Source: Thalassomonas actiniarum
GTDB taxonomy: Bacteria > Pseudomonadota > Gammaproteobacteria > Enterobacterales > Alteromonadaceae
Direction: 5' to 3'
NCBI RefSeq assembly: GCF_000948975.2
Contig: NZ_CP059735.1
Coordinates: 372,001-436,000, forward strand
Length of the DNA: 64,000 nucleotides
In this document: one piece after another, positions 6,901 through 32,212 of the stretch
Numbering within the stretch: the stretch's first letter is position 1
Layout: every line of letters begins with the position of its first letter
Translations under genes and position numbers: made by a program
Notes under the pieces: model-generated
Told to the model about the DNA's origin: nothing
Databases searched by the model: none
Seen by the model: the letters and a program-made list of their open reading frames with translations, nothing else

Positions 6901-7080
6901 CACCAATCTTGATTCGTGACGGTGCCTACCTTCGATGTCGATCTCTCGTCCGGTCTTGTGTACATCAAAACGCAGGTTGTCATAACCTAGTGCATAGAAG
7001 AGATCGGAGACGAGCCGCGTGAAGAGATCGCCACGGCCGTTGTTTGTTGGATCAAGAAGACGAAGAGGGTGTTTTGCCAC
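3931..7080 (-). CDS. Mrr-like nuclease-NACHT STAND ATPase, candidate anti-phage protein
   Basis: A 1049-residue cytoplasmic protein starting at GTG (AAGGA about 10 nt upstream). The N-terminal domain (about 1-130) is a PD-(D/E)XK fold of the Mrr type: D48 in REIDIEG and E63-C-K65 in AECK. A linker containing a YIQLDGL element (about 255-261) leads to a NACHT domain: Walker A GGGKST at 323-328, Walker B LLLVDGLDE ending at E416, sensor TSRE at about 445-448, and the winged-helix FRHLTFQEYLAA at 643-654. The C-terminal 370 residues look like alpha-helical repeats. This layout (effector nuclease, STAND ATPase, repeat sensor) matches bacterial NACHT and Avs-type anti-phage proteins: the repeats recognise a phage product, oligomerisation activates the nuclease. 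It stands alone as a single-gene unit. Its target and phage range are unknown. Confidence 0.85.
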   Translation of the reverse strand: MAKHPLRLLDPTNNGRGDLFTRLVSDLFYALGYDNLRFDVHKTGREIDIEGRHRHESRLVIAECKAHAKPIGGADLNKILGAVTREREKGQPVAGYFVSLGGFTESAIEQERGSSEQTRIIPIDTKGVITELTRSNIIITQEKAVERAGRCAEHARLDSQAQFNSSELLGHPLGYIWALYYELGKDVTHFALVHADGNPLSETAAAQVIEADRKCKGSLHKLTYLAPPPASPDRKTLTAEALEHYKNWLNKVCGYIQLDGLPAEGTIASKQMTLENLFVPLKLQVQSNAQEDDESTQEPEAKIHPVGEFITNQNRFSILAKPGGGKSTLLKRLAVAYADPDRRSCSEDGLPERDWLPLLLRCRDLRERTREPIRELLCDLGRHTEMDDNYAAAFRELVDDALNSGRALLLVDGLDEFSDAAARTTFANNLRVFLGMYPHTALVVTSREAGFRQVAGVIASVCVPTTMASFDKNDVHTLCKRWHAEVLPDTGENREEAIKLAKTIWSNKRIRALAENPLMLTTLLVVKRNVGELPTKRVKLYAAAINVLIRTWNVEGFAPLNEEETLARLSYIAVAMMRQGKQRIGKRQLLKLLQQAQKELEAELAYADIKPNKFIERVEYRSSLLMQTGYEDIDGVLEEVYEFRHLTFQEYLAARGLVEEQYPGRDDAAELSDLLEPYFKDESWREVVPLSAVLANRKSERLIQRLTEICATKELKHSLSDMTESHVALLRKCVLDEIQVRESTLRDALRQLARYASEEMLPGSTIHIIRGKFGRVFQEVAEDAFFGQSEDWVNYQSVIMDLGIEQFFGDRHFQMSAQAAAKLEHALTNGDPIQQGKAANTIAWSAFQAHNNGDKDFATLTERFRPLRYRIEGLLGEEENPLTLSMAVAMIWMGIAGLTDNPPDKEAMLTLFRLWQNAQNHEVRRIAKWAFGMQPLLPRDAIDVAVWGDCETLINNKTQFNEEEECGSLVLAWYRGQPWSDAHLLEKLKEILSDKKNTIWVNRFPALFHLLNALGEPGRQALAEWKQNAKTEILNKLGSNIRRVLELED

Positions 7081-29231: not shown

Positions 29232-30296
29232 TTAACCTTTGTGAACAACTTTCTTTGTCGTTGCCTCAATTTTTGCCACTACGCGGCGATTCAGGCTGTG
29301 ATCTTTTGCGCTGTTGCCGTTTGATAGCAACTGTGTCTGGCCGTAACCTTTGGCTGATAAACGGCTTGCTTTGATATTGAATTTGTTGATCAAAATATCT
29401 TTTACCGCTTCGGCCCGATTTTGCGACAGCGCCAGGTTATATTGGGCAGCACCGGTAGCCGAGCTATGGCCTTCAATCACAACCTGGGTATCGCTGTATT
29501 CCTTCATAAAGTCGGCCAGGCGTTGAATATCATCAATTAATGCCGGTTTTACTTTGGCGCTGTTATTGGCAAAAGCCACATTTAAGGTAATGGCCACTTC
29601 ATGCTCGGCATACAAAGTACAGCCGGTAGAGTCTACCTTTACGGTAGCCGGGGTATGGGCGCAGCGATCTTTATCATCACTGATGCCGTCGTTGTCGCTA
29701 TCAACAGGGGTTGCTTCTGTAACGGCCACCGGCTGTATTGCCGGCTTGGCGCTGTTGTCGGCCCGGTTTGATACCGGTCTTTGCTGCTCTGCGCCAAAGC
29801 TGTATTTAAGGCCTAACTTAAAGCCCTGATCGACATAACCGTAATTAACATCTTTATAGATGGCCGCTTCGGTATATACAGAGAAACGTTCATTTACCTG
29901 AAAGCCGTAACCGGCACCGACATTCAGGGCGTTATAACTTCTGGTATTGTTGAAGCGTTTAATACCCGAAAATAAATACAGATCGCTTTCCGGCAACTTA
30001 TAGACGGCATCGGCGCCGTAACGGTAGCCGTAAGTTTTGTCGTTGCCGTTTTCAATATCGTAGCGGCTTCTTGCTAATTCAAAACGCACATTCCAGTAAT
30101 CATTGATGATTTTGTGCAGATCGACACCGACAGACTTACCGGCTTCAATTTGCTGCCAGCTGTTTTTGTTCTCTTTATTGGTGCTTGATTTGATGTAATC
30201 GCCAAATACACCGACCTGCCAAGTTTCATCCAAAGTTTCCGCGGCTAAAGGAGTGCTGATCAAGGCAGCCAGTAAGGTGATGTTAAATATTTTCAT
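29232..30296 (-). CDS. OmpA/OprF-family outer membrane porin
   Basis: A 354-residue exported protein: signal peptide (MKIFNITLLAALISTPLAAE), an eight-stranded OmpA-type beta-barrel (about 22-190), a short linker with a calcium-binding thrombospondin-type-3 repeat (DSDNDGISDDKDRCAHTP, with a second Cys nearby), and a C-terminal OmpA peptidoglycan-binding domain (about 230-345, VVIEGHSSATGAAQYNLALSQNRAEAV). The ATG at 30296 follows AGGA; the longer frame is rejected. OprF of Pseudomonas has this layout. Divergent from crfX-cmpX-sigX homologues, with a shared promoter element; see the ECF promoter entries. Confidence 0.9.
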   Translation of the reverse strand: MKIFNITLLAALISTPLAAETLDETWQVGVFGDYIKSSTNKENKNSWQQIEAGKSVGVDLHKIINDYWNVRFELARSRYDIENGNDKTYGYRYGADAVYKLPESDLYLFSGIKRFNNTRSYNALNVGAGYGFQVNERFSVYTEAAIYKDVNYGYVDQGFKLGLKYSFGAEQQRPVSNRADNSAKPAIQPVAVTEATPVDSDNDGISDDKDRCAHTPATVKVDSTGCTLYAEHEVAITLNVAFANNSAKVKPALIDDIQRLADFMKEYSDTQVVIEGHSSATGAAQYNLALSQNRAEAVKDILINKFNIKASRLSAKGYGQTQLLSNGNSAKDHSLNRRVVAKIEATTKKVVHKG

Positions 30297-30345
30297 TGAG
30301 AGATTTCCTGTTTGGTAAAAGTCATTTTTATTTGTTGATGCTTCT

Positions 30346-30373
30346 ATAACGGAGATAAAAACCAAAAGTCACA
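30346..30373 (-). promoter_or_regulatory. ECF (SigX-type) promoter of the porin gene
   Basis: Read leftwards: TGTGAC at 30373-30368, 16 nt, then CGTTAT at 30351-30346, preceded by an A-tract ending AAATTT. The ATG lies 50 nt further on. The identical arrangement occurs before the divergent crfX-like gene, so one sigma factor probably reads both. Confidence 0.75.
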
Positions 30374-30538
30374 AATTTTTTACCTTAAATGAAAATAAAA
30401 ATTAACCGCTGCTTTTTACTGCTACTGGAGGCAAAAAATAGTCAAAAAAGACAGTCAATTAACGTAAAATAATAAACTTTCCGATCGGGCAGTCATAAGC
30501 CCGAACTAAAACAAGAATAAAAGGCAAAAATAAAAATT

Positions 30539-30566
30539 TGTGACTTTTTTCGTGAGTGAGCGTTAA
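30539..30566 (+). promoter_or_regulatory. ECF (SigX-type) promoter of the crfX-cmpX-sigX operon
   Basis: TGTGAC at 30539-30544, exactly 16 nt, then CGTTAA at 30561-30566, with AAAAATTT directly upstream. It matches the porin promoter in both elements, in the 16-nt spacing and in the upstream tract. Since the operon encodes an ECF sigma factor, this implies autoregulation. Confidence 0.75.
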
Positions 30567-30603
30567 TGAATAAAGCGCTGGAGCTTTGTTGGCGGAGGGT
30601 AAG

Positions 30604-30837
30604 ATGAAAGATATTGAAAAGAGCATCACACAAGGGCTGGAAAACGAGCCTGAGCAAATGTTTAACGTTTCAGATGATGAATTATTTAAACGTGCTGTCA
30701 CCACAGTTAATGTCCAGCAAGGCAGTAAAGATCTGCTTGCCCTGGGCATGGCGTCAATTTGGGTGGTTTTTGTCAGCATATTTATCAAGATATTAAAGCC
30801 GGTTTTTAAACACATGGCCGACAACAGGAGCAAATAA
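30604..30837 (+). CDS. crfX: CrfX-like small membrane protein
   Basis: A 77-residue protein: an acidic, helical N-terminal half (MKDIEKSITQGLENEPEQMF) and one hydrophobic segment (LALGMASIWVVFVSIFIKIL). GGAGGG precedes the ATG at 30604. Its stop overlaps the next gene as TAATG. Position, size and shape match CrfX, the small protein encoded ahead of cmpX and sigX in Pseudomonas. Its molecular role is unclear. The assignment rests on synteny more than on sequence. Confidence 0.65.
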   Translation: MKDIEKSITQGLENEPEQMFNVSDDELFKRAVTTVNVQQGSKDLLALGMASIWVVFVSIFIKILKPVFKHMADNRSK

Positions 30838-31662
30838 TGGATACTGAAAACATTACCGAAAAAACCTATTCCGGGTTAATGGCCGTCTGGCATAAGGTGG
30901 CCACCTTTTTTACCGGATTTGATCGTTGCCATTTTATTCCTGCTGGTTGGCTGGTTTATTTCAAATTTGATCAAACGTTTGTTGAATAAGTTTCTGATCA
31001 AAATTGGCTTTAATACTTTTGTCGACAAACTTGGCCTGGATCAGCTGCTGCAAAAAATGGATCTTAAGGTCAGCGGCAGCCAGGTGGTGGCAGGCATTAT
31101 TTCTACTTTTATCTTATTGATTTTTTTACTGGCGGCATTAGACATTGTCGGCCTGAAAATGTTGTCCGGTTTAATTGATACCCTGACCTTATTCCTGCCT
31201 AAGTTGCTGGCCGCCCTGGCGGTACTGTTATCTGGCTTCTTTGTTGCACAAATCGTCTTTAACGGCGTGAAAATAGCGGCCAAAAATACCGGTGTCGACT
31301 ATGGCCGCTCGGTTGCCGAAGTTTGCCGCGGCATTATTATCGTTATTACCATGTCTTTATCTATTACCCAGCTTGATATTGATGTTTCGCTGCTTAATAA
31401 CATTATTTCCGTCATTATTGCCAGTGTCGGTCTGGCTGCCGCTATTTCCTTAGGCATAGGCACTAAGTCGATGGCGCAGGAGATTGTTGCCGGTGTCTAT
31501 TTACGGGAAATGTATCAGGTAGGCGATAATATCGAGGTGAATGATATCAAAGGGGCTTTGGTTGCCATCGGCAGTGTTGCCAGCAAAGTGATGGCAGAAG
31601 AAGAGGCGATAGTCACTGTGCCCAATACCTTTTTACTGGCCAATAAAGTCACTAAAAAGTAA
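30837..31662 (+). pseudogene. cmpX: CmpX-like mechanosensitive-channel-family protein, frameshifted
   Basis: The gene starts at ATG 30837 (GGAG upstream, TAATG overlap with the crfX-like gene): MDTENITEKTYSGLMAVWHK, then VATFF. A run of six T at 30906-30911 throws the frame; with five T it would read VATFLPDLIVAILFLL and join the long second frame, which ends at 31662. The second part has several transmembrane helices and the MscS-like beta region (AISLGIGTKSMAQEIVAGVYL, VGDNIEV). CmpX belongs to the conserved-TM-helix/MscS family and influences membrane properties and SigX activity. An indel in a homopolymer may be real decay, a slipped tract that still yields some protein, or a sequencing error. 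Confidence 0.75.
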
Positions 31663-31681
31663 CTCAAGGGCAAAATAAACT

Positions 31682-32212
31682 TTGACCAGTTTTAATGAAC
31701 GTCAGCTTGTTGCCTTAGTGCAGGAAAGCTTGCCTTATGACACGCGCTTTTTTCAGCAGCTGATCACGCCGTATTTGCCGGTACTGAAAGGTTACTGCGC
31801 AAAATTACTGAATAATCAGTCTGATGCAGAAGATGTCGTGCAAGAAACCATTATTAAGGCACTGACCCATCTTAAGGGTTTTAAGTGGTTGGTGTCTTTT
31901 AAGGTCTGGCTGTTCAAAATTGCCCATAACGAATGTATCAACAAGATCCGGGATCGGCGCTGGGACATGTATCAGGACGGCGACGACTACCTGGAAAGCG
32001 CCATTGCCGAAACGCCTCAATGTGAAGATTTAGCCAGTGCAATATCGGCGCTTATGGTCAACTTATCCTTTATCGACCGCAATATCATGTTGTTGCGCTA
32101 CCGCACCGGTTTAGAGTTTCAGGAAATCGCCGATGTCTGTGAAATGAAACTTTCGGCGGTGAAAATGCGCCATAAGCGTGTTATTGAGTTTCTGCGGGAA
32201 AAGGTCGAGTAA
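31682..32212 (+). CDS. sigX: ECF sigma factor, SigX-like
   Basis: A 176-residue RNA polymerase sigma factor with only regions 2 and 4. Region 2: LLNNQSDAEDVVQETIIKAL (region 2.1-2.2, about 43-62) and FKVWLFKIAHNECINKIRDRR. Region 4: DRNIMLLRYRTGLEFQEIADVCEMKLSAVKMRHKRV (about 133-168), the DNA-binding helix-turn-helix. No anti-sigma gene is adjacent, as for Pseudomonas sigX, which lies in a crfX-cmpX-sigX-oprF cluster. The TTG start at 31682 has AAGGG about 10 nt upstream; no in-frame ATG is available nearby. The matching promoter elements before crfX and the porin are its likely targets. Confidence 0.88.
   Translation: MTSFNERQLVALVQESLPYDTRFFQQLITPYLPVLKGYCAKLLNNQSDAEDVVQETIIKALTHLKGFKWLVSFKVWLFKIAHNECINKIRDRRWDMYQDGDDYLESAIAETPQCEDLASAISALMVNLSFIDRNIMLLRYRTGLEFQEIADVCEMKLSAVKMRHKRVIEFLREKVE

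Follow-up and report, generated by a model that had tools for sequence, protein, structure and literature searches.

The divergent arrangement of an OmpA-family porin gene and a cfrX-cmpX-sigX operon in Thalassomonas actiniarum raises the question of whether the ECF sigma factor SigX transcribes both its own operon and the porin. The window analysed here is a stretch of 64,000 nucleotides (contig NZ_CP059735.1, positions 372,001 to 436,000) from a genome of 7.49 Mb in two contigs, in which the porin (− strand) and cfrX-cmpX-sigX (30604–32212, + strand) flank a 307-nt intergenic region with the following features:

29232–30296, − strand: OmpA-family porin, 354 aa (Pfam OmpA, 70.3 bits; OMP_b-brl, 40.6 bits)
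30346–30373, − strand: predicted SigX-type promoter of the porin, TGTGAC (30373–30368), 16 nt, CGTTAT (30351–30346), then AG (motif scan)
30374–30385, − strand: A/T tract 5′ of the porin −35, a possible UP-like element judged from A/T-richness
30527–30538, + strand: A/T tract 5′ of the operon −35, a possible UP-like element judged from A/T-richness
30539–30566, + strand: predicted SigX-type promoter of cfrX-cmpX-sigX, TGTGAC (30539–30544), 16 nt, CGTTAA (30561–30566) (motif scan)
30604–30837, + strand: cfrX (crfX), 77 aa; encodes a putative anti-sigma or partner protein that contains a hydrophobic segment (profile match)
30837–31662, + strand: cmpX, MscS-type mechanosensitive channel, frameshifted in the assembly (Pfam MS_channel_1st_1 and MS_channel_2nd on the downstream frame)
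31682–32212, + strand: sigX, ECF sigma factor, 176 aa, TTG start (NCBIfam NF007222)

A divergent locus with a paired motif

The sigma factor passes the curated SigX model NF007222 (244.9 bits against a cut-off of 194), in agreement with the first-pass annotation, which had recognised an ECF sigma factor in the operon; the interval it described, 30297–31662, takes in both motif sites, cfrX and cmpX but omits sigX itself (31682–32212). The locus resembles the P. aeruginosa SigX type locus in its operon with cfrX and an MscS-type cmpX (the frame of the latter being broken here), in a cfrX promoter of the same type as that of Pseudomonas, and in a linked OmpA/OprF-type porin, though this is divergent rather than downstream. 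The porin has an OprF-like layout in Pfam, with a beta-barrel followed by the OmpA C-terminal domain. A Pfam search with the CfrX of the window returned no family, and comparison of profiles built from seven sequences per side gave an hhalign probability of 92.7% (E 4.4e-7) between it and Pseudomonas CfrX. In the window's clade, CfrX carries a hydrophobic stretch at approximately residues 44–64 (judged by eye) that looks membrane-spanning, unlike P. aeruginosa CfrX, with Pseudomonas CfrX described as soluble (PMC8999054).

The break in the cmpX frame coincides with a T6 run (30906–30911), which in the nearest congener (L006) is T5. All of the 23 further loci in the comparison have an intact frame, which rules out a programmed frameshift and leaves either an assembly error or a fresh mutation. 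A terminator-like hairpin lies just 5′ of the T6 run, with seven such hairpins in the scan as a whole compared with 4.9 expected by chance.

Both sites match TGTGAC-N16-CGTTAW with no mismatches, and are the only exact matches in the window, with none arising in 100 shuffles of it. When the 307-nt intergenic region was dinucleotide-shuffled 20,000 times, two shuffles gave a match on one strand and none gave matches on both, so the same bipartite motif with an exact 16-nt spacing, as first reported for the two divergent promoters, is upheld. With up to two mismatches allowed, the window holds 11 matches compared with 6.6 expected, a count reached by 9 of 100 shuffles; the window at this stringency is near chance, and only the exact pair is therefore significant. 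The genome-wide scan that the annotation had proposed gives four exact matches compared with three for the backward control, two of the four being the sites of the locus and the other two lying within long open frames. The AAATTT tract said to precede both motifs is indeed present at both, its last T being the first base of TGTGAC, but is not kept in relatives, where A/T-richness alone is conserved.

Conservation with sigX across the family

Of 147 genomes sampled across the family, 15 carry Colwellia-type sigX, defined by 59% identity or more; 20 genomes matched sigX at E 1e-20, the remaining five being of a sister type. A named set contributed 20 loci, mostly from Colwellia and Cognaticolwellia (25 were returned, with five remote ECF factors excluded), and overlaps the family set, giving 25 distinct loci. 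Conservation was counted over 23 of these, excluding L038, which is cut by a contig end and has both of its sites on another contig of the same genome (L099), and L041, a solitary sigX paralogue with neither cmpX nor motif. Colwellia sp. C2M11 carries L041 as a second sigX (69% identity) besides its main locus, L036, in which the divergent gene encodes a 185-aa protein that matches no Pfam family, with a third motif at 6983.

TGTGAC-N16/17-CGTT stands 5′ of cfrX in all 23 Colwellia-type operons counted, and a divergent copy likewise accompanies all 23, 22 directly and the last (G007) as tandem copies at the porin (L091); the check for conservation in related genera, suggested with the original observation, thus returned both motifs throughout. 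In G007 the porin promoter is present three times in tandem (G007:C1:1484965-1485176), the copies 92–93 nt apart and each with the full motif. All 19 divergent sites in the alignment have a spacing of 16, as do 17 of its 20 cfrX sites, the other three having 17; the alignment dropped three loci in which the cmpX anchor word was missing, and the divergent side of G007 falls outside its locus. The resulting clade consensus is TGTGACTTTT-N12-CGTTAWAG, preceded by a tract that is simply A/T-rich. Flanks and spacers have diverged, whereas TGTGAC, CGTT and the spacing persist, although the fixed letters are partly due to search selection.

Of the 147 genomes, 19 carry a porin orthologue (55% identity or more), namely 14 of the 15 with Colwellia-type sigX and five of the 132 others, all being related genomes. 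The full motif lies 5′ of the porin in 14/14 genomes with Colwellia-type sigX, at 76–78 nt from the ATG in 12 and at 90 and 403 nt in the remaining two, compared with 0/5 genomes without it, within 700 nt and with CGTT or CGTC allowed (Fisher 8.6e-5, a P value that overstates independence given the relatedness of the genomes). Two of these five carry sister sigX (G046, G084) and three have no sigX match at E 1e-20 (G041, G038, G078), with G041 showing a bare TGTGAC 66 nt 5′ of the porin ATG and no −10. In the congeners G061 and G095 both sigX (at E 1e-20) and the porin (at E 1e-60) are missing, a pattern that would fit gain or loss of the divergent unit in one piece.

The five sister ECF matches, at 30–35% identity to the SigX of the window, also belong to cfrX-cmpX-sigX operons (L020–L024), and TGTGAC-N17-CGTY is present in 5/5. 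These operons share with the window the same three genes, an OmpA- or MgtE-type neighbour and this promoter form, and differ in the low identity of their SigX, which falls below the SigX cut-off of 194 bits (146–149 bits for the three scanned out of five). In three of them (L174–L176) the first 3.5 kb held no site, and the site was found next, 5′ of the OmpA-family gene that precedes cfrX; in the other two (L177, L178) it lies 5′ of cfrX, with a divergent copy 5′ of an MgtE-type gene. MgtE-type magnesium transporter genes with SigX-type sites are divergent from cfrX in three genomes (L020, L177, L178, L044), with L044 also carrying a site directly 5′ of an AstE-type gene. In L020 a site precedes rimK, behind which comes an AstE-type gene; altogether, rimK or AstE-type genes behind sigX carry SigX-type sites in two genomes. 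Additional sites lie before another OmpA-domain gene in L023 and before a frame without a Pfam hit, cut by the locus end, in L024.

Beyond the locus, the strict motif occurs seven times in the 15 sigX genomes (0.47 each; 5.9 expected) compared with 52 times in the 132 others (0.39 each), which include the five with sister sigX, and the backward control gives 11 matches in the same 15. A second pattern, sought in 13 genomes, turned up no further site shared by more than one genus. This suggests that the regulon in the window's clade is small and local, although weaker sites would be missed, and contrasts with the primary regulon of 347 genes reported for P. aeruginosa (PMC4362757). Four of the seven off-locus sites were inspected, with two lying within long frames and two outside them (L118 in G065 and L129 in G064); the latter carry the full motif and may be extra targets. 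Order-wide and class-wide searches for SigX gave few loci (4/394 at threshold, 5/369 with three over the cut-off, and 5/388), and the SigX family search gave 0/14 in named control genomes. On plasmids, 558 records weakly matched the SigX of the window, none at 60% identity, and none matched Pseudomonas SigX at E 1e-30.

Pseudomonas SigX and the fatty-acid genes

SigX was matched in 52 of 59 Pseudomonadaceae genomes, and TGTGAC-N16-18-YGTC(T/A) lies before cfrX in all 31 Pseudomonadaceae loci read (30 loci and L054). In a further genus sample 22 of 24 loci fit, three of the 24 having been counted already, and the other two have one mismatch each. Taken as distinct cfrX upstream regions, 50 of 52 fit TGTGAC-N16-18-YGTC, the misfits being a P. 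aeruginosa-type genome (OprF 157/157 to PDB 4rlc) with CGTGAC-N17-CGTCA, and L155 with CTTC in place of CGTC. The SigX proteins of the two clades are 37–38% identical, with region 4.2 (EFQEIAD...LSA.KMR) strongly conserved, in line with a shared −35.

The P. aeruginosa system, in which SigX is classed as ECF102 (PMC8999054), is alike in its cfrX-cmpX-sigX order, a homologous CfrX, an MscS-type CmpX, a SigX above the cut-off and an adjacent OmpA-type porin, and has the same −35 TGTGAC and a similar −10 before cfrX. It differs in its −10 and spacer, mostly CGTC(T/A) with N17 in Pseudomonas compared with CGTTAWAG with N16 in the window's clade, and in the position of the porin, which lies behind sigX in P. 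aeruginosa and is divergent from cfrX, with its own SigX-type site, in the window. The gene 5′ of cfrX is the porin in the window and cmaX, a CorA-like gene, in P. aeruginosa. The porin site is not universal: in the Pseudomonas loci inspected, the intergenic region 5′ of oprF, the classic SigX target, does not contain the motif.

The cfrX and cmpX genes of P. aeruginosa depend on SigX, the consensus of which was “not precisely defined” as of 2020 (PMC7641640). The same study places a RACE start for cfrX at −208, away from the motif and at a sigma70-like promoter, which counts against the SigX reading, and cites a 13-nt cfrX leader from RNA-seq, the promoter of which is unproven (PMC7641640). 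In the P. aeruginosa-type genome, the start of the 13-nt leader would lie 8 nt after CGTCA if a GTG 6 nt before the ATG is the start codon, and counted from the same GTG the −208 start falls 7 nt beyond a TATAAT; with the ATG as the cfrX start these distances become 14 nt and 13 nt respectively. The position of the 13-nt leader relative to CGTCA is therefore suggestive only. For P. aeruginosa, a SigX logo is in print (PMC4362757, Fig. 2), and beyond that figure the portions available of PMC7641640, PMC8999054, PMC3875570 and PMC6249292 yielded no SigX consensus in print, with nothing on it in PMC3832394 or PMC8103513. The first-pass view that the consensus in this lineage was undescribed may therefore hold, and any novelty is confined to the consensus of this lineage and its generality across orders.

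Genome-wide, YGTGAC-N17-CGTC gives 10, 9, 8 and 8 matches in four Pseudomonas genomes, the ten being those of the P. aeruginosa-type genome. Five matches recur in all four species, before cfrX and before four further genes, each checked by tblastn in all four genomes:

accA: CGTC to start codon 133–167 nt, four Pseudomonas genomes
accD: CGTC to start codon 185–241 nt, four Pseudomonas genomes
ketoacyl synthase (fabY-like): CGTC to start codon 139–161 nt, four Pseudomonas genomes
ZapG-like gene (in the P. aeruginosa-type genome at L183, 1013): CGTC to start codon 100–107 nt, four Pseudomonas genomes

The ketoacyl synthase lies behind arcC and was taken as fabY. SigX induces accA, accD and fabY, for which no discernible consensus was reported and control was thought to be possibly indirect (PMC3875570), and cfrX, accA and fabY are all lowered when sigX is mutated (PMC7641640). 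On a simple uniform model, the chance of three known SigX-induced genes appearing amongst the matches is ~1e-9 to 7e-9, and the ZapG-like gene is, from the placement of its site, a candidate SigX target in Pseudomonas. Backward controls outnumber real matches (29–55 compared with 8–10 per genome), so the match counts themselves show no enrichment and the case rests on position and recurrence. The accA site falls in the end of dnaE, so part of its conservation may reflect coding sequence. None of the remaining five matches of the P. aeruginosa-type genome recurs, and all of them overlap long open frames on one strand, with one (L185) also lying ~30 nt 5′ of a 475-aa frame. Most other SigX-induced fatty-acid genes, including accB, fabD, fabG and fabH3 (PMC3875570), are not amongst the matches identified.

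SigX and alternative readers of the sites

What is observed directly is the motif and how far it is conserved, its occurrence together with sigX, and its presence before known SigX-responsive Pseudomonas genes; from this we infer, with a probability of about 0.92, that the sites are promoters read by SigX, such that sigX autoregulates and drives the porin; binding, start sites and the inducing signal belong to the inferred part of this reading. The autoregulation and porin control proposed at the outset are favoured by the presence of the motif at both promoters in relatives, at cfrX in Pseudomonadaceae and in the sister lineage, and on this evidence appear well founded.

A different ECF sigma factor of the RpoE/AlgU kind, with SigX as a mere neighbour, is a very unlikely reader of the sites. 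Promoters of the RpoE/AlgU envelope-stress type share the bipartite ECF form, the 16–17 nt spacing and envelope targets, and AlgU acts on the same P. aeruginosa gene cluster, at cmaX (PMC7641640). Their −35 and −10 are, however, GAACTT and TCTNN (PMC7641640), and the AlgU/RpoE consensus GAACTT-N16/17-TCTNN is not found at either site, both of which read TGTGAC-N16-CGTTAW; it is moreover mutation of sigX that lowers cfrX, accA and fabY (PMC7641640). The motif also accompanies the sigX operons of three lineages and is missing from porin orthologues whose genomes lack Colwellia-type sigX.

TGTGA is also a CRP half-site, and the motif might be an operator for CRP or another activator at promoters read by sigma70 or another sigma factor, an explanation that seems marginally less probable still. 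A sigma70-like match (9/12) does lie on the porin strand at 30496–30469, though such matches are at chance level (10 in the scan compared with 7.4 expected), and none overlaps either motif. The CRP palindrome TGTGA-N6-TCACA is not seen at the two sites, at which the right half mismatches at five and three of five positions; amongst 46 motif sites, the best right half has one mismatch and only five have two. CRP would furthermore leave CGTTA at a fixed distance unexplained, and the motif is absent from porin orthologues in genomes without Colwellia-type sigX. That an A/T-rich intergenic region has produced the similarity by chance or by duplication is scarcely credible: both sites lie in A/T-rich DNA with AAATTTGTGACTTTT common to both, and one relative has tandem porin-promoter copies (L091), but shuffles fail to give the pair and the same core recurs in Pseudomonadaceae amid unrelated flanks.

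With SigX as the reader, the sigma factor would be held by a partner, for which CfrX is the candidate in the mechanosensing model (PMC8999054), and would be freed by a disturbance of the envelope, the signal being that suggested by published Pseudomonas work. Freed SigX, with RNA polymerase, would transcribe its own operon, placing sigX under autoregulation along with CfrX and CmpX, its putative controllers, and from the mirror-image divergent promoter the OmpA-type outer-membrane porin would be raised along with it. The promoter would then conform to TGTGACTTTT-N12-CGTTAWAG in the window's clade and to TGTGAC-N16/17-CGTYWA more widely, with a −35 common to the lineages and a −10 and spacer that vary by lineage.

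More broadly, TGTGAC-N16/17-CGTYWA is probably a SigX promoter across at least two orders, with a regulon core of sigX and an envelope gene (a porin, an MgtE-type Mg2+ transporter or an OmpA-family gene), and with Pseudomonas SigX probably transcribing accA, accD, the fabY-like gene and the ZapG-like gene directly, the fatty-acid arm being seen on the Pseudomonas side only. If true, control of accA, accD and fabY by SigX would be direct where the original authors suspected an indirect effect (PMC3875570). As of 2020, the lack of a precise consensus meant that SigX promoters could not be searched for in P. aeruginosa (PMC7641640). The motif was read in the DNA of a marine bacterium and recurs before SigX-responsive Pseudomonas genes; with it, the question of that consensus can be put to the test one base at a time, and it has a bearing on whether fatty-acid synthesis is under direct SigX control.
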